NCBI GenBank assembly: GCA_020160955.1
Contig: JAIUOX010000002.1
Location: forward strand, 1 to 64,000
Source: Pseudomonadota bacterium
GTDB lineage: Bacteria; Pseudomonadota; Alphaproteobacteria; Reyranellales; Reyranellaceae
Length of the DNA: 64,000 bases
Reading direction: 5' to 3'
Shown: one piece after another, positions 34,401 through 43,455 of the stretch
Numbering within the stretch: the first letter of the stretch is position 1
Layout: each line of letters opens with the position of its first letter
Translations under genes and position numbers: made by a program
The notes under the pieces: generated by a model
Databases searched by the model: none
Told to the model about the DNA's origin: nothing
Seen by the model: only the letters and a program-made list of their open reading frames with translations

Positions 34401-34425
34401 AAGGGCGCCTGCGGGCGCCCTTTTT
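34401..34425 (+). terminator. intrinsic terminator after the Liv binding-protein gene
   Basis: GGGCGCC (34403-34409) pairs with GGCGCCC (34414-34420) around a TGCG loop, followed by TTTTT at 34421-34425. It separates the binding-protein gene from the sigma factor operon. Confidence 0.9.
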
Positions 34426-34479
34426 GTTTGCGCGAATGCTGTCGCGATCAAGCTGCACAACGGTTGTGATCTGTTACGA

Positions 34480-34507
34480 TTTACAATTATCGGATGTGCC
34501 ATACACT
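34480..34507 (+). promoter_or_regulatory. possible sigma70-type promoter of the sigma/CHAT operon
   Basis: TTTACA (34480-34485) and TACACT (34502-34507) are 16 bases apart in an AT-rich patch upstream of the sigma factor GTG at 34534. If the factor is autoregulated, a second, unrecognised ECF promoter may lie in the same interval. Confidence 0.4.
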
Positions 34508-34533: not shown

Positions 34534-35142
34534 GTGTCCCGCAACGAACCCCTGCCTGCCCCCGAGTCGGACTTCGACCTGGTGGACAGCGTGCTGCGGG
34601 GCGCCCCCGGCGCCGTCGAAGCCTTCCACCAGCGCCACGGCCAGTTGATCTACCACTGCATCCGGGCGCGGGCCGGCGGGCAGGAGGCCGACGACATCTT
34701 CCAGGCCTTCTTCGAGCGGCTGGTCCGCACCGGCTACCGCCCGCTGCGCCTGTGGCAGCGCGGCACCTCCCTGCCCGTCTACCTGTCGCGCGTGATCCGC
34801 AACTTCGTCACCGACGTGCATCGCGGCCGGCGCTTCCGCGAGGAGGCGGTCGGCGGGTCGCTCGAACTCGAACCGCTGGCCGGCGGCCAGGACGAGACCG
34901 TCACCGCCGCCACCCAGTTGCGCGACCTCCGCAAGGTCGGCCTGCAGGCGTGGTCGGCCCTGGAGAGCCGCGACCGCCGGCTGGTCTGCGACCGCCTGCA
35001 CCGCGACCTCGACAACGAGACGATCGCCGGGCGGCTCAACCTGGCGCCCGGCACCCTGCGGACCGCGATGTCGCGCGCGCAGGCGCGGTACCTTGCCGAG
35101 GTCCGCCGCCGCGCCCCGGAATTCTTTCCCGACACGGCGTAA
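34534..35142 (+). CDS. ECF-type sigma70 family RNA polymerase sigma factor
   Basis: 202 residues from a GTG with GGAG six bases upstream. Region 2 (about 25-90) has the core-binding and -10 segments QEADDIFQAFFERLVRTG and YLSRVIRNFVTDVHRGRR. Region 4 (about 135-195) has ALESRDRRLVCDRLHRDLDNETIAGRLN followed by a recognition helix. No region 3 or 1.1, as in ECF factors. It is followed by a membrane protein and a CHAT protease in the same direction with 32- and 24-base gaps, so all three are probably one transcript. The target genes are unknown. Confidence 0.88.
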   Translation: MSRNEPLPAPESDFDLVDSVLRGAPGAVEAFHQRHGQLIYHCIRARAGGQEADDIFQAFFERLVRTGYRPLRLWQRGTSLPVYLSRVIRNFVTDVHRGRRFREEAVGGSLELEPLAGGQDETVTAATQLRDLRKVGLQAWSALESRDRRLVCDRLHRDLDNETIAGRLNLAPGTLRTAMSRAQARYLAEVRRRAPEFFPDTA

Positions 35143-35174
35143 CGCCGGGCCGCCCGGCACCGTCTTCCCTACAA

Positions 35175-36077
35175 ATGAGAAAATCCTGCACGCCGGTAGG
35201 GCCCCCGGATCGCGACGATGCGGCACCTCCCGAAGACCCCGTGATGCTCAGCATCCTGCGCAACGGCGGCCAGGGCTGGGCGCCACTGGCGCCCGACGAG
35301 GAACGCCTGCTCGACGACTGGGCTTCCGGCCAGCTGGCGCCGGACGGTCCCGCCGCGGCGATGGTGGCGGCGCTGGTGAGACGCAACGTGCTGGCCGCCG
35401 AGCGCCTGCTCGAGCGACGCCTGCTCGACCTCGCGGGCCGCGGGCCGGCGGCGCCCCCGCTGGCCGCCGCGACGATTGCCGCCGCGACCATGACCGCCCC
35501 GGCCGGGCGCGTGGCCCTGCCACCCCCGGCCCTGCCCGGTCGACCGCCCTGGAGCGTCTGGCCGTGGCGCTGGCCCTCGCTGGCGGGGGGCCTGGCCGGT
35601 GGATTGGTCCTCGCCTCGGTGCTGGCCATCGGCGGCGTGCCGCTGCTGCGCGAGGCGATGCGGGGCGAACCGCCGCTGCAGGTCGCGCTGGTGTCGATCG
35701 GCGACCGCGGCGCGCTGTTCGAACCGACCGACATCCGGATGCGCGGCGGCGAACGCGCGCCCGTGCCGGTCGGCGAGCGGCGCTTTCGCGACCTCGAGAT
35801 CCCGGCCGACGCGGTGAAGCGCCTGGTCGCGGACGGCGCGCGCGACGGAACGGCGGCCGACGCCGCTGCCGTGCTGCCGCTCGGCCCGCGCCGCGATCCC
35901 ACGCGCGTGCTGGTCGACGCCGCGCTGCGGGCCCGCGCCGACACCAGCCCCGAGGGCACGCGCCTGCCGGTGCGGCTGTACGACCTCGACGACCCGCGCG
36001 CCGTCGAGCTGCGGGCGGCCCTCGGCGTCTCGCCACGCCCCGGCGAACGGCTCTTCCTGCTGACGATGCGCCCATGA
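35175..36077 (+). CDS. single-pass membrane protein, putative anti-sigma factor
   Basis: 300 residues if the ATG at 35175 is used; neither it nor the GTG/ATG at 35241/35244 has a clear ribosome site, so the start is uncertain. A cytoplasmic N-terminal helical region (about 40-100; DEERLLDDWASGQLAPDG ... RRNVLAAERLLERRLLDL) is followed by a Pro/Ala-rich linker, one membrane helix (about 133-156), and a periplasmic C-terminal domain of about 145 residues. This topology and its place right after an ECF sigma factor are those of a membrane anti-sigma factor. No zinc-binding HxxxCxxC motif is present. Not recognised as a named family. Confidence 0.65.
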   Translation: MRKSCTPVGPPDRDDAAPPEDPVMLSILRNGGQGWAPLAPDEERLLDDWASGQLAPDGPAAAMVAALVRRNVLAAERLLERRLLDLAGRGPAAPPLAAATIAAATMTAPAGRVALPPPALPGRPPWSVWPWRWPSLAGGLAGGLVLASVLAIGGVPLLREAMRGEPPLQVALVSIGDRGALFEPTDIRMRGGERAPVPVGERRFRDLEIPADAVKRLVADGARDGTAADAAAVLPLGPRRDPTRVLVDAALRARADTSPEGTRLPVRLYDLDDPRAVELRAALGVSPRPGERLFLLTMRP

Positions 36078-36101
36078 AGGGGCGACCATGAGGGAGAAGC
36101 C

Positions 36102-38906
36102 GTGAAGCGGCCGCCGGCGCGCCGCCTGCTCGTCGTCGTGGCGCTGCTCGCCGGGCTCGTGCTGGCCCGCGCCCCGCCTGCCGCCGGCCAGGACGAGCCC
36201 CTGGCCACCGCGACCGGCGGCGTCGCGCAGATGCTGGCCGCGGGACGAACCCTCGACGTCACCGCCGCGCTGGTCTCGGGATTCGCCACGCTGCCGCCGG
36301 CCGAGCACGAATCGTGGTTCTTCTTCGCGGCCATGACCTGCCTCTCGCTCGAATCGACCGACTGCGCGGCGGCAGTGCTCGGCCTGCCGCTCGTCCTCGA
36401 GTTCACGCCCGAGCGCGTCTACCCGCAGACGGCCGGCGCGCTGATCCTGCTGACGGCGTGGTTCAGCGCCGCGATCGGCGAGGATCGCGGCGCCCGCCGG
36501 CTGGCGGAGACCGGCATTCCCAAGGCGCTGGCGACCCCGCTGTCGCGCCCGGTGCTGTACGCCGAGTTCGCCCTGCTGGCGGCGCAGCAGGCGCGCCGGG
36601 CGAACAACTTCGCCCTCTCGCGCAGCTACCTCGACCGCGCGCTGGCGACCACGCTGTCCTTCCAGGACGAACGCCACGCCGCGACCGGGCTGGTGCTGCG
36701 CATCATCCGGCAGCACGTCGCCAACTACGATGCCGAGCGGGCGCTGCGCCTGTTCGTGGCGGCCGAGACGCTGTTCGAGACGGTGCCGCGCGCCAGCCTG
36801 CAGTATGTCCAGTTGCTGCGCCTGCGCGCCGAGCTGAACGGCTATCGCGGCGATCCGCGGGCGGCGTCGCAGGACCTGCTGCGCCTGGTCGATCGGCTGG
36901 ACGACCTGCAGCTCGAGCCCGGCGTCCGCGAGACGATGCGGGCCGATGCCTACTCGCAGCTGATCGTCCTCGAGACGCTGGCCGGCGAGCGCGACGTCGC
37001 CCGCGCGTTCCTGCTCCTGCACCCGCTGGCGGAGCGTCGCGCCGGGATCCACGCCCGCGGCCGCTTCGCCGACGCCACCGAGTTCTGGTTCGCCGTGACC
37101 GAGGAGTTCATCCACGGCGACGGCGCGCGCCTCGGGACCGATGGCTGGCGGGCGCTGCTCGAGCAGCCGATCGACTGGACGACCCACGACGACGATCGCG
37201 AGCAGGCCGAGGCCTTCGCCCGCCTCGCCGCCAGCGTGAACCGGCTGCGCCGCGGCGAGCCCGGGGCCCGGGCCAGCCTTCTCGAGGCCGCCCATCGCCG
37301 GCTGGCGACGCTGCAGCGGCTGCATCGCCAGTCGGTCTTCGCCTCGCCGCTGCCGTCGTGGCCGGATCGCCTGCTGCTCGAGATCGCCGCGACGGCAACG
37401 ATCGCCGCGCCGTCACCCGATCTCGGCCTGCTGCTCGGGGTCCACGTCGTGCTGGCGCGCTCGCTGCACTCGCGGTCCGACGACACGCTGGCCGCCTTGG
37501 CCCGCTATCGCACCGACGCCGGTCGCCGCGCCGTGCAGGGCCTCTACGTCACCGACCTGCAGCGCATCGACTGGGAGACCGCGGCGCTCGAGGCGCTCGG
37601 CCGGCGCCTGCTCGGACCGCCCGGCACGGCCGCCGACCGCGCCGCGATCGTCTCTGCGGCGGGCGACTTCACCCGGCGCCAGGCCAGCCTGCGCGCCGCC
37701 CTGGTCACCCCGCCCGGCGGCCAGCCCGAGGGCGAGCGGGTCGGCATCCGTGCCCTGCAGCACCGGCTGCAGCCCGACGAGGCCCTGCTGTTCTACGTGC
37801 CGATGCTGGACGGCCAGCTCGCCAAGGTCTGCCTGCGCCGCGACCGGGCGATGGCGCGCTCGGAACCGATGGACAACGAAGACTTCGCGCAGGCCCGGCG
37901 GCTGGTCGCCGCCCTGCTGTCCGACGAGCCGCCGTCGCCCGACGACGACCGCCGGTTCCCGGTCGCGGCCGCCGTCCGGCTGCACCGCATCCTGCTCGGC
38001 GACCTCGAGCCCTGTCTCGACGGGGCGCGGCGCGTCCACCACGTGCCGCCGCGCGGCCTCGAGCGCCTGCCGCCCGGCATCCTGCTGGCCGAGCCGCCGC
38101 CGCTGCTCGGCGACCGTCACGACCTGCGCGCGGCGCACTGGCGCGTGCGCGACCTCGCGTTCGTCCAGGAGACCTCGATCAGCGCCTTCCTCGCCGCGCG
38201 CCGGCTCGCCGGCACGCGCACCGCCCGCCTCGACTACCTCGGCGTCGGCGACCCGGTGCTGGCGGCGCCGGTGATCGGCAGCGCCTTGCCCGAACTGCCC
38301 GAGGCCTCGCAGGAACTGCAGGCGGTGGCCGGCCTGTTCCCGGCCGACCGGGCGCGGGTGCTGCGCCGCGCCGACGCCACCGAGCAGCGGCTGGGCGAGG
38401 CCCCCGCCGGGGACTACGACATCCTGCACTTCGCGACGCACGGCCTGACACGCCACGACCTGCCCGACCTCGCCGAGCCCGGCCTCGTCCTGACCGCGGC
38501 CGCCGGCAGCGACGGCTTCCTGCCGGCATCGCGGATCGCCACCTGGCCGCTGCGCGCCCGGCTGGTCGTGCTGTCGGCCTGCAACTCCGCCCGCCACGAC
38601 CCCCTGCTCGGCGATCGCGGCATCCAGGGCCTCGCCACCGCCTTCACCCTGGCCGGCGTGCCGTCGACGATCGCCGCCCTGTGGCCGGTCGACAGCGCGC
38701 TGGCGCGCGACACCATCGTCGCCACCTTCGCCGCGGCGCGCGGCGGGGGCAGCGGGGGCGGCGTCGCGATCGCCGACGCGCTGGCCCTCGCGCAGCGGCG
38801 CCACCTCGACGGGCCGACGCCGCGACCGCTGCTGCATCCCCGCTTCTGGGCCGCGCTGGTGGTGATGGGCGACGGCGCGATGACGCTGGCCGCCGCGACG
38901 CCCTGA
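36102..38906 (+). CDS. secreted TPR-CHAT caspase-like protease
   Basis: 934 residues from a GTG, with AGGGAG upstream. A signal peptide (MKRPPARRLLVVVALLAGLV ... AAGQ) places it in the periplasm. Residues of about 100-460 form helical TPR-like repeats (RRANNFALSRSYLDRALATT, YDAERALRLFVAAETLF). The C-terminal CHAT domain (about 640-930) has the catalytic His780 in HFATHG and Cys827 in VLSACNSA, plus GIQGLATAFTLAGVPSTIAALW, so it should be an active caspase/separase-like peptidase. Third gene of the sigma/membrane-protein operon. Related TPR-CHAT proteins serve as regulated proteases; an exported one with a sigma factor is noteworthy. Confidence 0.88.
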   Translation: MKRPPARRLLVVVALLAGLVLARAPPAAGQDEPLATATGGVAQMLAAGRTLDVTAALVSGFATLPPAEHESWFFFAAMTCLSLESTDCAAAVLGLPLVLEFTPERVYPQTAGALILLTAWFSAAIGEDRGARRLAETGIPKALATPLSRPVLYAEFALLAAQQARRANNFALSRSYLDRALATTLSFQDERHAATGLVLRIIRQHVANYDAERALRLFVAAETLFETVPRASLQYVQLLRLRAELNGYRGDPRAASQDLLRLVDRLDDLQLEPGVRETMRADAYSQLIVLETLAGERDVARAFLLLHPLAERRAGIHARGRFADATEFWFAVTEEFIHGDGARLGTDGWRALLEQPIDWTTHDDDREQAEAFARLAASVNRLRRGEPGARASLLEAAHRRLATLQRLHRQSVFASPLPSWPDRLLLEIAATATIAAPSPDLGLLLGVHVVLARSLHSRSDDTLAALARYRTDAGRRAVQGLYVTDLQRIDWETAALEALGRRLLGPPGTAADRAAIVSAAGDFTRRQASLRAALVTPPGGQPEGERVGIRALQHRLQPDEALLFYVPMLDGQLAKVCLRRDRAMARSEPMDNEDFAQARRLVAALLSDEPPSPDDDRRFPVAAAVRLHRILLGDLEPCLDGARRVHHVPPRGLERLPPGILLAEPPPLLGDRHDLRAAHWRVRDLAFVQETSISAFLAARRLAGTRTARLDYLGVGDPVLAAPVIGSALPELPEASQELQAVAGLFPADRARVLRRADATEQRLGEAPAGDYDILHFATHGLTRHDLPDLAEPGLVLTAAAGSDGFLPASRIATWPLRARLVVLSACNSARHDPLLGDRGIQGLATAFTLAGVPSTIAALWPVDSALARDTIVATFAAARGGGSGGGVAIADALALAQRRHLDGPTPRPLLHPRFWAALVVMGDGAMTLAAATP

Positions 38907-39014
38907 AAGGCATGCAGGACGACTGAAATACGTCGCGGTTGAATACGCATAATTACTGCTGTTTGATGCCGGCGCAGGCCCGGCCAACGGGCGAGAAAAA
39001 AGGAAACGCCCGCG

Positions 39015-40316
39015 ATGACGACCGACCAGCGCCCGCTCAAGGGCGCCTGGGGCATGACCGCCCTGCTGCTGCTGTTCATGCTGATCAACTTCGCCGACAA
39101 GGTCGTGGTCGGCCTCGCCGCGCGGCCGATCATGGCCGACCTCCACCTGACGCCTGAGCAGTTCGGCCTGCTGGGCTCGTCGTTCTTCTTCCTGTTCGCG
39201 ATCTCCGCGGTGATCGTCGGCTTCATCGCCAACCGGGTGCAGACGCGGCACACGCTGCTGGTCATGGCGATCATCTGGTCGCTGGTGCAGTTCCCGATGC
39301 TGGGCACGGTGTCGCTGGAGCTGCTGATCGCCTGCCGCATCGTGCTCGGCGCCGGCGAGGGCCCGGCCAACCCGGTCGCCCTGCACTCGATCTACAAGTG
39401 GTTCCCCGACCACCTGCGCGGCCTGCCGACCGCGATCATCGCGCAGGGCTCGGCGCTGGGCGTGATCGTCGCCGTGCCGACGCTCAACTGGATCATCGTC
39501 ACCTACAGCTGGCACTGGGCGTTCGGCGCGCTGGGCATCGCCGGCCTGTGCTGGGTCGCGCTGTGGCTGGTGTTCGGCCGCGAGGGCACGCTGGTCGACA
39601 AGCCGCACACCTTGGCCGAGGGCATGGTCGAGCGCATCTCCTACTGGCGCCTGCTCACCTGCCCGACCATCCTGGCCGCCTGCGCCGCCGGCTTCGCCAG
39701 CTACTGGGGCCTCGCGCTCGGCCTCACCTGGTTCACCTCGTACCTCGTCGACGGACTGGGCTACAGCCAGACCGTGGGCGGCAACCTCACCATCCTGCCG
39801 TGGGTGTTCGGCATGGTCGTCGTGCTGACCGGCGGCTGGCTGTCGCAACGCCTCAAGAAGGCCGGCGTGTCGAGCCGCCTGTCGCGCGGCGCGCTGGCCT
39901 CCGCCACGGTGTTCATCGGCGGCTGCATCCTGCCATTCGTCGGCAGCATGCCGACGCCCGGCCTCAAGGTCGCAGCCCTGGTCGTCGGCGCCGCCATCGG
40001 CAGCACGATCTACGTCGTGACGCCGATGATCGTCAGCGAGCTGACGCCGCAGCCGCAGCGCGCGGCGATGCTGGCGATCGTCACCTCGCTGGTGACGCTG
40101 GCCGGGGTGATCGCGCCGCTGGCGATGGGCGCCGTGATCCAGCAGGCCGCCTCGCCGGTCGCCGGCTACGAGAAGAGCTACGTCATCCTCGGCGTGCTGC
40201 TGCTGGTCGGCGGCCTGGTCGGGTTGCTGTTCATCCGGCCCGAGCACGACCGGGCCCGGCTGGCGGCGCATGCCACCGCGGTGCCGCTGGCCGGCACCGT
40301 CGCGGCCCGCGCCTGA
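39015..40316 (+). CDS. MFS transporter, anion:cation symporter type
   Basis: 433 residues with twelve hydrophobic segments. The N-terminal NFADKVVVGLAARPIMADLHLTPEQFGLLGSSFF and the GAGEGPANPVALHSIYKWFPDHLRGLP segment are typical of the ACS/sialic acid-hexuronate branch of the major facilitator superfamily, which imports organic acids with protons. An AGGAAA ribosome site precedes the ATG. It is 108 bases beyond the CHAT gene in an AT-rich gap and probably has its own promoter. The substrate is unknown. Confidence 0.88.
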   Translation: MTTDQRPLKGAWGMTALLLLFMLINFADKVVVGLAARPIMADLHLTPEQFGLLGSSFFFLFAISAVIVGFIANRVQTRHTLLVMAIIWSLVQFPMLGTVSLELLIACRIVLGAGEGPANPVALHSIYKWFPDHLRGLPTAIIAQGSALGVIVAVPTLNWIIVTYSWHWAFGALGIAGLCWVALWLVFGREGTLVDKPHTLAEGMVERISYWRLLTCPTILAACAAGFASYWGLALGLTWFTSYLVDGLGYSQTVGGNLTILPWVFGMVVVLTGGWLSQRLKKAGVSSRLSRGALASATVFIGGCILPFVGSMPTPGLKVAALVVGAAIGSTIYVVTPMIVSELTPQPQRAAMLAIVTSLVTLAGVIAPLAMGAVIQQAASPVAGYEKSYVILGVLLLVGGLVGLLFIRPEHDRARLAAHATAVPLAGTVAARA

Positions 40317-40323
40317 CCTCCGC

Positions 40324-41193
40324 CTAGCCCTTGACCGCGCCGGCGGTCAGGCCCGACGACATGAACCTGCGGAAGGCGTAGTAGATCAGCGCCGGCGGCA
40401 GGGCATAGAGGAAGCCGGCGGTCATCAGCAGCTCCCACGGCGAATCGTCGGCCGACAGGAAGTTGCCCAGCGCCACCGGCAGGGTGATCGCCGTGTCCTT
40501 CGACAGCAGCAGGAAGGCGTAGAGGTACTCGTTCCACGCCAGCAGCAGCGCGTAGGTGCCGACCGCGATCATCGACGGTACCATCAGCGGCAGGTAGATC
40601 ATGCGGAACAGCTGGAACGGCGAGGCGCCGTCGATCATCGCGGCCTCGTCGAGTTCCTGCGGCAGCTTGTCGGAGGCCTGGCGCAGGATCCAGATCGCGT
40701 AGGGCGAGGAGATGGTGGCCATCGCCAGCACCAGCGACCAGTCGTTGTTGAGCAGGCCGTACATGCCCATCGTCTTGTACATCGGCACGGCGAGGAACGC
40801 GGCCGGGATGAAGTAGGTCAGCAGCGCGAGGTTCATCACCACCCGGCCGCCCTTGAAGCGCAGCCGGCTGATCGCGAAGGCCGCGGCGGTCGCGACGCCC
40901 AGCGTGATCGCCGCGGTGCCCACCGAGATCACCAGCGAGTTGAACATCTGCAGCCAGAAGTGGTTCAGGAAGTGGTGGCGCTGGCCGATCACGGTGGCGA
41001 AGTTGCGCAGCGTCGGGTCGGTCGGCCAGAGCTGGCCCGAGAACGCCGCGTCCTTCGGCGAGATCGCGAACAGGACCATGTGGTAGATCGGGATCAGCGT
41101 CCACAGCAGCAGCGGGATGCCGACCAGCAGCAGCGCCGCCTCCAGCCCGGCCTCGCGCCGGATCTTCCTCCAGTTCAGGGGGCTCCAGTTCAT
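40324..41193 (-). CDS. sugar ABC transporter permease, MalG type
   Basis: 289 residues with six membrane helices. The coupling motif EAAMIDGASPFQLFRMIYLPLMVPSMIAVGTYALLLAWNEYLYA is the EAA loop of carbohydrate-type permeases, and the C-terminal SSGLTAGAVKG is typical of MalG-like proteins. It overlaps the MalF-type gene by ATGA. No MalK-like ATPase follows; the next gene is convergent, so the ATPase must be supplied from elsewhere. Confidence 0.92.
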   Translation of the reverse strand: MNWSPLNWRKIRREAGLEAALLLVGIPLLLWTLIPIYHMVLFAISPKDAAFSGQLWPTDPTLRNFATVIGQRHHFLNHFWLQMFNSLVISVGTAAITLGVATAAAFAISRLRFKGGRVVMNLALLTYFIPAAFLAVPMYKTMGMYGLLNNDWSLVLAMATISSPYAIWILRQASDKLPQELDEAAMIDGASPFQLFRMIYLPLMVPSMIAVGTYALLLAWNEYLYAFLLLSKDTAITLPVALGNFLSADDSPWELLMTAGFLYALPPALIYYAFRRFMSSGLTAGAVKG

Positions 41194-42068
41194 TTCGACA
41201 GCCGCTTCATGAGCACCCAGACCAGCGGCAGGATCAGCGGCAGGGCGCAGACGATGGTCGCCATGGCGAGCCCGACCTGGTCGAGGCGCAGGTAGCGGAT
41301 GCCGAGCGTCGCCAGCACGTGGGTGAGGTCGGCCGGGCCGCCGCCGGTCAGCAGGTAGACGCTGTTGAAGTCGCCGACCGTGAAGATCATCGAGAGCAGC
41401 GTGCAGGTCGCGTAGAGCGTGCTCATCGACGGCCACGTGATGTAGCGGAAGCGGTGCCAGCCGCCCGCCCCGTCGACCGAGGCGGCCTCGTAGAGCTCGT
41501 GCGGGATGGCCAGCCGGCCGGCCAGCAGGATCAGCGTCCAGAACGGCAGCGACTTCCAGATGTGGACGGCCATGGCGAGGCACAGCGCCAGCGTCGGGTC
41601 GTTCAGCCAGTTCGGCCCGTCCTCGGCGGTCAGGCGGAAGATCAGCTGGTTCACGACGCCCCACTCGGGGTTCAGCATGAACCGCACCGACAGGATGGTC
41701 GGGATCGACGGCACCGCCCACGGCAGCACGAACAGCACGGCCAGCACCTTCACCCACCAGCGCCGGTTGGTGAAGAAGCCGGACAGGAACAGCGCGATCG
41801 CCATCTTGAGGTTGATGGCGACGATCAGGAACACCAGCGTGTTGACGACGGTGCGGGCGAAGATCGGGTCGGCCGCCAGCTGGATGTAGAGTTGCGGATC
41901 GCGCGCCAGCCAGAAGCTGTAACCGACCGGGAAGACGACGAAGCCCGCGAAGATCGCGACGTAGGGCGCGACGAAGATCAGCCCCCAGGCCTGGCGGGCC
42001 GAGAGCGAAAAAAGACCCCGCCGGGAAGGCTCCCGGCGGGTCTCGGTGTCGACGGCGGTCGCGGTCAT
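41190..42068 (-). CDS. sugar ABC transporter permease, MalF type
   Basis: 292 residues, six membrane helices. The EAA loop is YEAASVDGAGGWHRFRYITWPSMSTLY, and the periplasmic NPEWGVVNQLI segment is typical. The ATG at 42068 has no clear ribosome site, and the first 20 codons contain a strong intrinsic terminator (42008-42042). The true start could therefore be later, though no better-placed ATG or GTG precedes the first membrane helix. Pairs with the MalG-type permease. Confidence 0.88.
   Translation of the reverse strand: MTATAVDTETRREPSRRGLFSLSARQAWGLIFVAPYVAIFAGFVVFPVGYSFWLARDPQLYIQLAADPIFARTVVNTLVFLIVAINLKMAIALFLSGFFTNRRWWVKVLAVLFVLPWAVPSIPTILSVRFMLNPEWGVVNQLIFRLTAEDGPNWLNDPTLALCLAMAVHIWKSLPFWTLILLAGRLAIPHELYEAASVDGAGGWHRFRYITWPSMSTLYATCTLLSMIFTVGDFNSVYLLTGGGPADLTHVLATLGIRYLRLDQVGLAMATIVCALPLILPLVWVLMKRLSK
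42008..42042 (-). terminator. intrinsic terminator inside the 5' end of the MalF-type gene
   Basis: On the minus strand GACCCGCCGGGA, a four-base loop, and TCCCGGCGGGGTC (one bulged base) are followed by six T. The hairpin lies between 42,042 and 42,014 and the T run ends at 42,008, inside the coding start of the permease. It should stop most transcripts from the binding-protein gene. Confidence 0.85.
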
Positions 42069-42087
42069 GCGAGGCGCGGAGCCGCGA

Positions 42088-43455
42088 TCAGTTCGCGACT
42101 TCCTTGATGCGCACGATCATCTCGTCCACGGCCTTGTCGACCGGGACCTTCTCGCTGACCACGCGGTTCATCGCCTTGGCCCAGACGTTTTCGTTGTTGA
42201 GGATCGTGAACTTCCAGTTCTTGGTGAACTCGAAGGGCAGCGTGCCGGCCATGAACTGGTCGTAAACCGCCTTGCGGTGCGGATCGGCCTGCCAGAACGC
42301 GCTCTTCTGGCTCTCCTTGGTGACCGGGAACCAGCGGCCGAGGGCGCCCTCGACGTACGGGCGGAGGTTCTCCTCCTCCATCAGGAACTTCAGGAAGTCG
42401 CGGGCGCGTGCCTTGTTCTTCGACTCCTGGAAGATCACGCCGACCTTGACCGCGGCGCGGTAGACCATCGGCGTGCCGTCCGGCTTCTTGGGGAAGCCCG
42501 AGGTGGCGATCAGCTCGTCGTAGGCCTTGCGGCCGGCGGCGCGCTGCTCCGGCGTGAGCTGCGGGTTGTTGGCGTCGTCCAGCCACTTGGCGGCGATCGA
42601 GATCGTGTAGTTGTGCGTCATCACCGTCGTGCGGTTGTGGAAGGCGACGTTGTTGTCGGGGTCCTTCCAGGTCGTCGACGAGGGCGGCGTGCAGCCCTTC
42701 ACGTAGACGTCGGTGTAGTCCTTGAGCGCGTTGATCAGACCGGCCCGCACCTTCGGGTCGTCGACCAGCAGCTTGCCGGAATCGTCGACCAGCTTGACGT
42801 TGTAGGCATCGACCCAGCTCAGGAACGACTGGAACGAGTCGGTCGACTCGACGCCCATCGGGCTGCCGATGCCGTAGACCCGCTGGCCGGTCGCCTTGCG
42901 CACCGCCGGCTGGACCTTGTCGCACCAGAAGGACCAGTACTCCTTCCAGGTGCCGGGAATCTCGCTCTCCTTGATGCCGGCCTGGGCCAGCATGTCCTTC
43001 CAATACTGGATGTGCAGCGTCTGCTGCTTGATCGGGAAGGCGTAGTAGGCCTTCTTCTTGGCCTTGTCGTTGAACAGGAACGCCGTCTCGACGGTGTTCG
43101 GCGAGAAGCGTCCCAGCATCGGCTGGATGAGGTCGGAGATGTCCTCGAGCTTGCCGTCGAACGCCCACTTGCTGGCGACCTGGACGTCGTAGGTGTCCGA
43201 GTAGGCGATGTCCGGCACCGTGCCGGCGTCGAGCGCGGCGACCGACTTCGGGATCATGTCCTGCACCGCGTACTGCGACAGGTCGATCTTCACGCCGGTC
43301 TTGGCCTCGTACTTCTTGATCGCCTCGAACAGGGCGTCGTCCTCGGACTTGTAGAAGCCCTTGACCCACCACACGGTGAGCTTTTCCTGGGCGTAGCCCG
43401 GCGTCGCCGACACGGCGAGCGCAGCCGCAACGGCGGCAGCCAATACGCGTCTCAT
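42088..43455 (-). CDS. sugar ABC transporter extracellular binding protein
   Basis: 455 residues with a signal peptide cut near GYAQ. Type I-like sugar-binding features include KLTVWWVKGFYKSEDDALFEAIKKYEAKTGVKID, PDIAYSDTYDVQVAS, and a terminal RRVVSEK region. It delivers substrate to the MalFG-type permeases directly downstream (19 bases). The terminator in the next gene implies far more binding protein than permease, as is usual for such systems. Substrate unknown; the size fits a di- or oligosaccharide or glycerol-phosphate receptor. Confidence 0.9.
   Translation of the reverse strand: MRRVLAAAVAAALAVSATPGYAQEKLTVWWVKGFYKSEDDALFEAIKKYEAKTGVKIDLSQYAVQDMIPKSVAALDAGTVPDIAYSDTYDVQVASKWAFDGKLEDISDLIQPMLGRFSPNTVETAFLFNDKAKKKAYYAFPIKQQTLHIQYWKDMLAQAGIKESEIPGTWKEYWSFWCDKVQPAVRKATGQRVYGIGSPMGVESTDSFQSFLSWVDAYNVKLVDDSGKLLVDDPKVRAGLINALKDYTDVYVKGCTPPSSTTWKDPDNNVAFHNRTTVMTHNYTISIAAKWLDDANNPQLTPEQRAAGRKAYDELIATSGFPKKPDGTPMVYRAAVKVGVIFQESKNKARARDFLKFLMEEENLRPYVEGALGRWFPVTKESQKSAFWQADPHRKAVYDQFMAGTLPFEFTKNWKFTILNNENVWAKAMNRVVSEKVPVDKAVDEMIVRIKEVAN

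Follow-up and report, generated by a model that had tools for sequence, protein, structure and literature searches.

Alphaproteobacteria commonly have exported caspase-fold proteins, few of which, to our knowledge, have known roles. The membrane anti-sigma factors of the RpoE-RseA-DegS/RseP and RskA-SigK types are known to be released by proteolysis. In the type III-E system, Csx29, Csx30 and CASP-sigma are parts of an RNA-guided CRISPR complex with Cas7-11, and CASP-sigma binding motifs are present in its own locus (PMC10028731). In the ECF54 group, whose model member is from Geodermatophilus, the neighbours are CHAT, subtilase or carboxypeptidase genes and proteolytic control was proposed; the group is described as having no anti-sigma factor (PMC8999054). 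The linkage of an ECF sigma factor to a CHAT protein is therefore not new as such.

The locus described here lies in the window, by which we mean the whole stretch of 64,000 nucleotides that was analysed. The source genome, a 5.1 Mb assembly of 210 contigs, is that of a soil bacterium with relatives including Reyranella and Rhodospirillales. Three plus-strand ORFs in series encode an ECF sigma factor, a one-span membrane protein and a CHAT-family peptidase (Table 1), separated by 32 bases between the sigma and membrane-protein genes and 24 bases between the membrane-protein and CHAT genes; place and spacing are as given in the initial annotation of this DNA. Like the type III-E system, the triad encodes together a sigma factor, a probable sigma inhibitor and a protease of the TPR-CHAT kind, but here the inhibitor is a membrane protein and the protease carries a signal peptide. 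Reading the ORFs that flank the triad gave no recognisable Cas gene, and the window has no Rfam match, which agrees with the earlier description of the trio as occurring without CRISPR. With the triad protease exported, the comparison with Csx29 is one of logic only. As in ECF54, an ECF sigma gene adjoins a CHAT gene, but a membrane anti-sigma candidate is present in every triad-type locus examined, which sets the triad apart from ECF54 as described. An ECF sigma factor and a one-span, probable anti-sigma factor with a cytoplasmic helical domain are shared with the RseA and RskA systems, whereas the periplasmic domain of the triad protein belongs to no known family and the co-encoded protease is of the caspase fold and not DegS-like.

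Table 1. Features of the triad locus, with positions in the window
Feature	Position	Strand	Basis or remark
Intrinsic terminator	34403..34426	+	GC-rich hairpin (GGGCGCC...GGGCGCCC) then TTTTT, read from sequence
Tentative housekeeping-type promoter of the sigma gene	34480..34507	+	TTTACA, 16 bases, TACACT; read from sequence
ECF sigma factor, 202 aa	34534..35142	+	GTG start; profile comparison, family models
Sigma-type promoter motif GTAACG-N16-CGTCT	35139..35165	+	overlaps sigma stop codon, ahead of membrane-protein and CHAT genes
One-span membrane protein, probable anti-sigma factor, 300 aa	35175..36077	+	start codon uncertain
Cytoplasmic helical domain, residues ~20-106, probable anti-sigma domain	35232..35492	+	AF2, hhalign
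Transmembrane helix, residues ~137-161	35583..35657	+	hydropathy, AF2
Periplasmic alpha/beta domain, residues ~166-300, no known family	35670..36074	+	AF2
R188-x-R190, candidate cleavage site	35736..35744	+	alignment, AF2
Exported CHAT-family cysteine peptidase, 934 aa	36102..38906	+	GTG start; PF12770 E 6.1e-42
Signal peptide, residues 1-29 (...LLVVVALLAGLVLARAPPAAG, then Q)	36102..36188	+	hydropathy 3.29; all orthologues
Helical solenoid, residues 33-450, TPR-like	36198..37451	+	AF2 pLDDT mostly 72-90, Foldseek
CHAT peptidase domain	37968..38873	+	PF12770, residues 623-924
Catalytic His780	38439..38441	+	invariant
Catalytic Cys827	38580..38582	+	invariant

The sigma factor was identified by its profile, which matched E. 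coli sigma-E over residues 8-190 and so confirmed the earlier assignment. It consists of regions sigma2 and sigma4 only, as in ECF sigma factors, and is distant from the family models: the match to TIGR02937 (2.9e-10, 40 bits) just missed the cut-off of 42.9 and Pfam region 2 was below cut-off. The terminator closes the upstream transporter gene and separates it from the triad, which is flanked by transporter and metabolic ORFs. TAnAnT elements similar to the tentative promoter of the sigma gene were found in the orthologues.

The membrane protein was predicted by AF2 to consist of helices at residues 22-106, a span helix at 142-162 and an alpha/beta domain that reaches to the C-terminus, with pLDDT mostly 69-94 from residue 201 onward. 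The transmembrane hydropathy maximum of 2.17 has the same position in every orthologue. This is the layout of RskA-type proteins (N-terminal helical domain, one span, extracytoplasmic domain) and agrees with the anti-sigma layout proposed earlier, although the RskA_C domain (PF10099) was not detected, the membrane protein having no Pfam match. When residues 43-151 were compared by hhalign with an RskA-family anti-sigma factor of another alphaproteobacterium, which adjoins its own ECF sigma gene, a probability of 83-84% was obtained from this one profile comparison, against 0.1-0.2% for three control proteins. The protein is thus probably an anti-sigma factor, and it would bind the sigma factor through its helical domain. 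The periplasmic domain had no Pfam or PDB match, and Foldseek with the membrane protein returned nothing of value. R188 and R190 are invariant across all aligned membrane proteins and lie in a coil of low AF2 confidence, preceding a variable linker.

The third protein had been described as a TPR-CHAT protease with an intact dyad and an export signal. It has a CHAT domain with the His-Cys dyad and is a putative peptidase; PF12770 matches no other gene of the assembly. His780 and Cys827 were invariant in 9/9 aligned full-length homologues and in every copy long enough to contain them. The TPR part of the description held only half-way: Pfam detected no TPR, and the predicted solenoid had TPR proteins among its PDB neighbours. 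Foldseek listed separase, Rap, MalT, LGN and Csx29 (8gu6), the best E value being 0.003 and none below 0.001. The CHAT domain was poorly modelled by AF2 because the alignment was shallow, and no sequence relation to solved CHAT structures was found. Hydropathy predicts an N-terminal signal sequence in every copy that includes the N-terminus. The mode proposed for ECF54, with a cytoplasmic CHAT protein acting on the sigma factor, was rejected on this ground. Once exported, the protease would be in the same compartment as the C-terminal domain of the membrane protein. The full-length orthologues (L032:12048-13220, L034:11400-12578, L037:12669-13847 and others) extend at the C-terminus by about 390-400 residues that the window protein does not have; by weak PDB matches to propellers, this extension is probably a beta-propeller.

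The triad is a real and conserved unit. Co-conservation, the check suggested in the initial annotation, was found: ten genus genomes (Reyranella-type Alphaproteobacteria, among them Reyranella soli) have the triad, all with the same gene order. CHAT orthologues were found in nine other genomes of the genus, and each was preceded by the sigma and membrane-protein genes; two of these nine loci are cut by contig ends. The recurrence of the trio in nine other genomes is not chance. Among 76 genomes of the order, the membrane protein was found in the ten genus genomes and in G070, and in no other. G070, of a different genus in the same family, carries the sigma/membrane pair without CHAT; a transposase-like gene stands directly behind its membrane-protein gene (L066:2985-3590), a search of the genome gave no CHAT relative, and behind the transposase there was no CHAT remnant above noise. 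The same profile found 18 other CHAT loci in the family, and the pair was absent from all of them. Within the genus, the sigma factor is 63-71% identical to that of the window; the membrane protein (41-47%) and full-length CHAT (41-46%) are less so, and syntenic neighbour genes are about 77-90% identical. The sigma factor is 63-75% identical in Reyranellaceae and 50-55% in Hyphomicrobiales. In the orthologues there is no gap between the membrane-protein and CHAT genes, the start codon of the second overlapping or abutting the stop of the first.

The triad is found in one syntenic block, at varying positions inside it, and no further gene was seen to accompany it in all loci. In the window (34534-43455) an MFS gene and a sugar ABC block follow it, and in other genomes it lies on the opposite side of the same block, showing that it has changed place in a neighbourhood that is conserved. 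Neither the membrane protein nor the sigma factor gave a new triad when used as a query across the class; the single weak match, G258, was an ordinary RskA-type anti-sigma factor and was kept as a comparison. No relative of the sigma factor or the membrane protein was found on plasmids. When genome contigs were searched with CHAT alone nothing was found, and the sigma alignment gave matches. The genomes used are mostly metagenome assemblies.

At the sigma stop codon, a motif GTAAC-N17-CGTC was observed in 13/13 loci, with a spacer of exactly 17 bases and variable sequence; the first element was GTAACG in 12 of the 13. We take this to be the form of an ECF promoter, as in sigma-W/X/M-type promoters. 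No such motif was found upstream of the sigma gene. Within the window alone the motif is not outstanding, as 1.7 chance matches are expected when one mismatch is allowed. Among 65 genomes of the genus, GTAACG-N16-CGTCY had 10-16 sites in each of the ten triad genomes and 0-7 sites in the 55 others, and these counts separated triad-bearing from triad-free genomes completely (Mann-Whitney p 2e-7, per Mb 4e-7). The control with a reversed pattern was far weaker (p 0.02). Because the motif was discovered at the triad loci, one or two of the sites in each genome do not count as independent; leaving out the locus sites, the triad-bearing genomes still have at least 8. G070 had two sites only, both at its own locus. 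The triad sigma factor would read GTAACG-N16-CGTC(T/C), a motif that is conserved and enriched in triad-bearing genomes. The genes after the motif include one for a small exported protein divergent from the sigma gene; lipoproteins, an exported peptide rich in proline and exported proteins rich in cysteine are encoded there as well, and several of these families, mostly without a Pfam family, recur between genomes. In the source genome 1 of the 12 other sites (L168) is clearly in the recurring secreted families and several look incidental; since most are not clearly before such genes, the regulon is uncertain there.

CHAT and C14 peptidases both belong to clan CD of the cysteine peptidases. 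The sigma/membrane pair was also found in two genomes of the Hyphomicrobiales group, G456 and G591 (completeness not given), with exported C14 caspases alongside and not CHAT. In G591 the CHAT slot of the operon is taken by an exported C14 caspase (PF00656, 1e-40), whose AGHG and DACRD motifs are intact; an order-wide search around this genome returned G591 alone. In G456 the exported caspase gene is adjacent, divergent and outside the operon. The protease family was changed and the pair was kept, which speaks for a role of an exported caspase-fold protease in the function of the pair. The promoter motif was also found within about 250 bases upstream of caspase genes, two in G591 and three in G456, where the genome has seven C14 matches; by our own estimate, 3 of 7 would occur by chance at about 1e-9, given 11 sites in 4.5 Mb. 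Exported pseudo-caspases with TPRs and the dyads F-S and Y-S are encoded beside the pair at L065:2763-4193 and L095:8000-9916, and an OmpA-like gene is also conserved at the pseudo-caspase loci of both genomes. The Rhizobiales orthocaspases and pseudo-orthocaspases are likewise exported C14 proteins, and the F-S and Y-S pseudo-variants that stand beside the pair in G591 and G456 are known from that order (PMC6426788).

Taken together, the locus is best explained, with a probability of about 0.6, as an ECF sigma/membrane anti-sigma switch that commands an envelope regulon in which an exported caspase-fold protease is included. The sigma factor appears to turn on the anti-sigma factor, the protease and other exported proteins, in what looks like a new envelope-response circuit. 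The motif ahead of the membrane-protein and CHAT genes and ahead of unlinked caspases makes the protease look like a regulated product, and the sigma factor probably has the CHAT protease among its targets. In the resting state, the membrane protein would hold the sigma factor at the inner membrane by its cytoplasmic helical domain. A putative envelope signal would act on the periplasmic domain and free the sigma factor, which would then engage the GTAACG-N16-CGTC(T/C) promoters. Transcription from the motif inside the operon would yield more anti-sigma factor, as a brake, and more protease, and about ten further promoters per genome, many before small exported proteins and lipoproteins, would be used. 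The protease would act as a regulated output on a presumed substrate in the periplasm or outside, and it may also cut the anti-sigma factor, reinforcing the response.

The initial annotation had instead proposed that, when the envelope is damaged or attacked, the exported CHAT protein cleaves the membrane protein in its periplasmic part and so releases the sigma factor. In this model CHAT would be the activating site-1 protease, perhaps cutting after R188-x-R190, and an intramembrane protease would finish the cleavage. The tie of the CHAT gene to the anti-sigma gene, down to overlapping or abutting codons in the orthologues, fits this model, as do the shared compartment and the switch from CHAT to C14 with the membrane protein kept. 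An invariant Arg-x-Arg in a low-confidence coil also fits, as orthocaspases cleave after basic residues (PMC6426788). G070 can be read in two ways: without CHAT it keeps the motif only at the locus itself, as the cleavage model would have it, and yet the pair exists there without the protease. A sigma-type promoter ahead of CHAT, and likewise of caspases at unlinked loci, is against cleavage as the trigger, and the G456 caspase is divergent and outside the operon. We regard the model as doubtful, and the evidence favours the protease as a regulated output. It is tentatively conceivable that both families serve as an exchangeable site-1 protease, CHAT in one order and C14 in another, which would be induced by the sigma factor and give a self-amplifying envelope alarm.

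CHAT and caspase domains occur in bacterial defence, and the triad might be a suicide or anti-phage module, in which caspase-fold proteases raised by the sigma factor and exported would damage an attacker or the cell itself. The membrane protein and CHAT, at about 42% identity, are indeed far less conserved than their neighbours at 77-90%, but no defence genes were recognised around the locus, PADLOC matches were weak and the recurring targets are small exported proteins without a family, so that this reading is very improbable. That the CHAT gene is a chance neighbour unrelated to the pair is strongly disfavoured by the order kept in 10/10 triads despite differing places in one syntenic block and by the C14 substitution in G591, even though 18 other CHAT genes of the family stand apart from such pairs and a second CHAT gene of this clade is present in G044, about 7 kb from the triad of that genome.

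A narrow ECF sigma family is here linked to exported caspase-fold proteins and probably drives them, which offers a handle on their timing and partners. If it is true that the protease cuts the anti-sigma factor, Csx29-type logic would operate outside CRISPR and on the far side of the membrane. The promoter motif and the target list make the output and cleavage ideas directly testable. In the parts of the literature that were searched, which lay outside the main ECF classification, no unit of ECF sigma factor, membrane anti-sigma factor and exported caspase-fold protease was described, nor was the motif, and the parts of the Rhizobiales orthocaspase literature covered made no link to an ECF sigma/anti-sigma pair.

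The second CHAT gene of G044 (L036:3080-7120) encodes a protein with a signal sequence, is located upstream of the triad and has neither a sigma/membrane pair of its own nor the motif. In the source genome, a motif site was found just upstream of each of two DUF559 genes (L164:3662-3988 and L167). Another site lies 8 bases before a gene for an M50 site-2-type protease (L161:3426-4103); this site is probably incidental, yet it is of interest for anti-sigma proteolysis.
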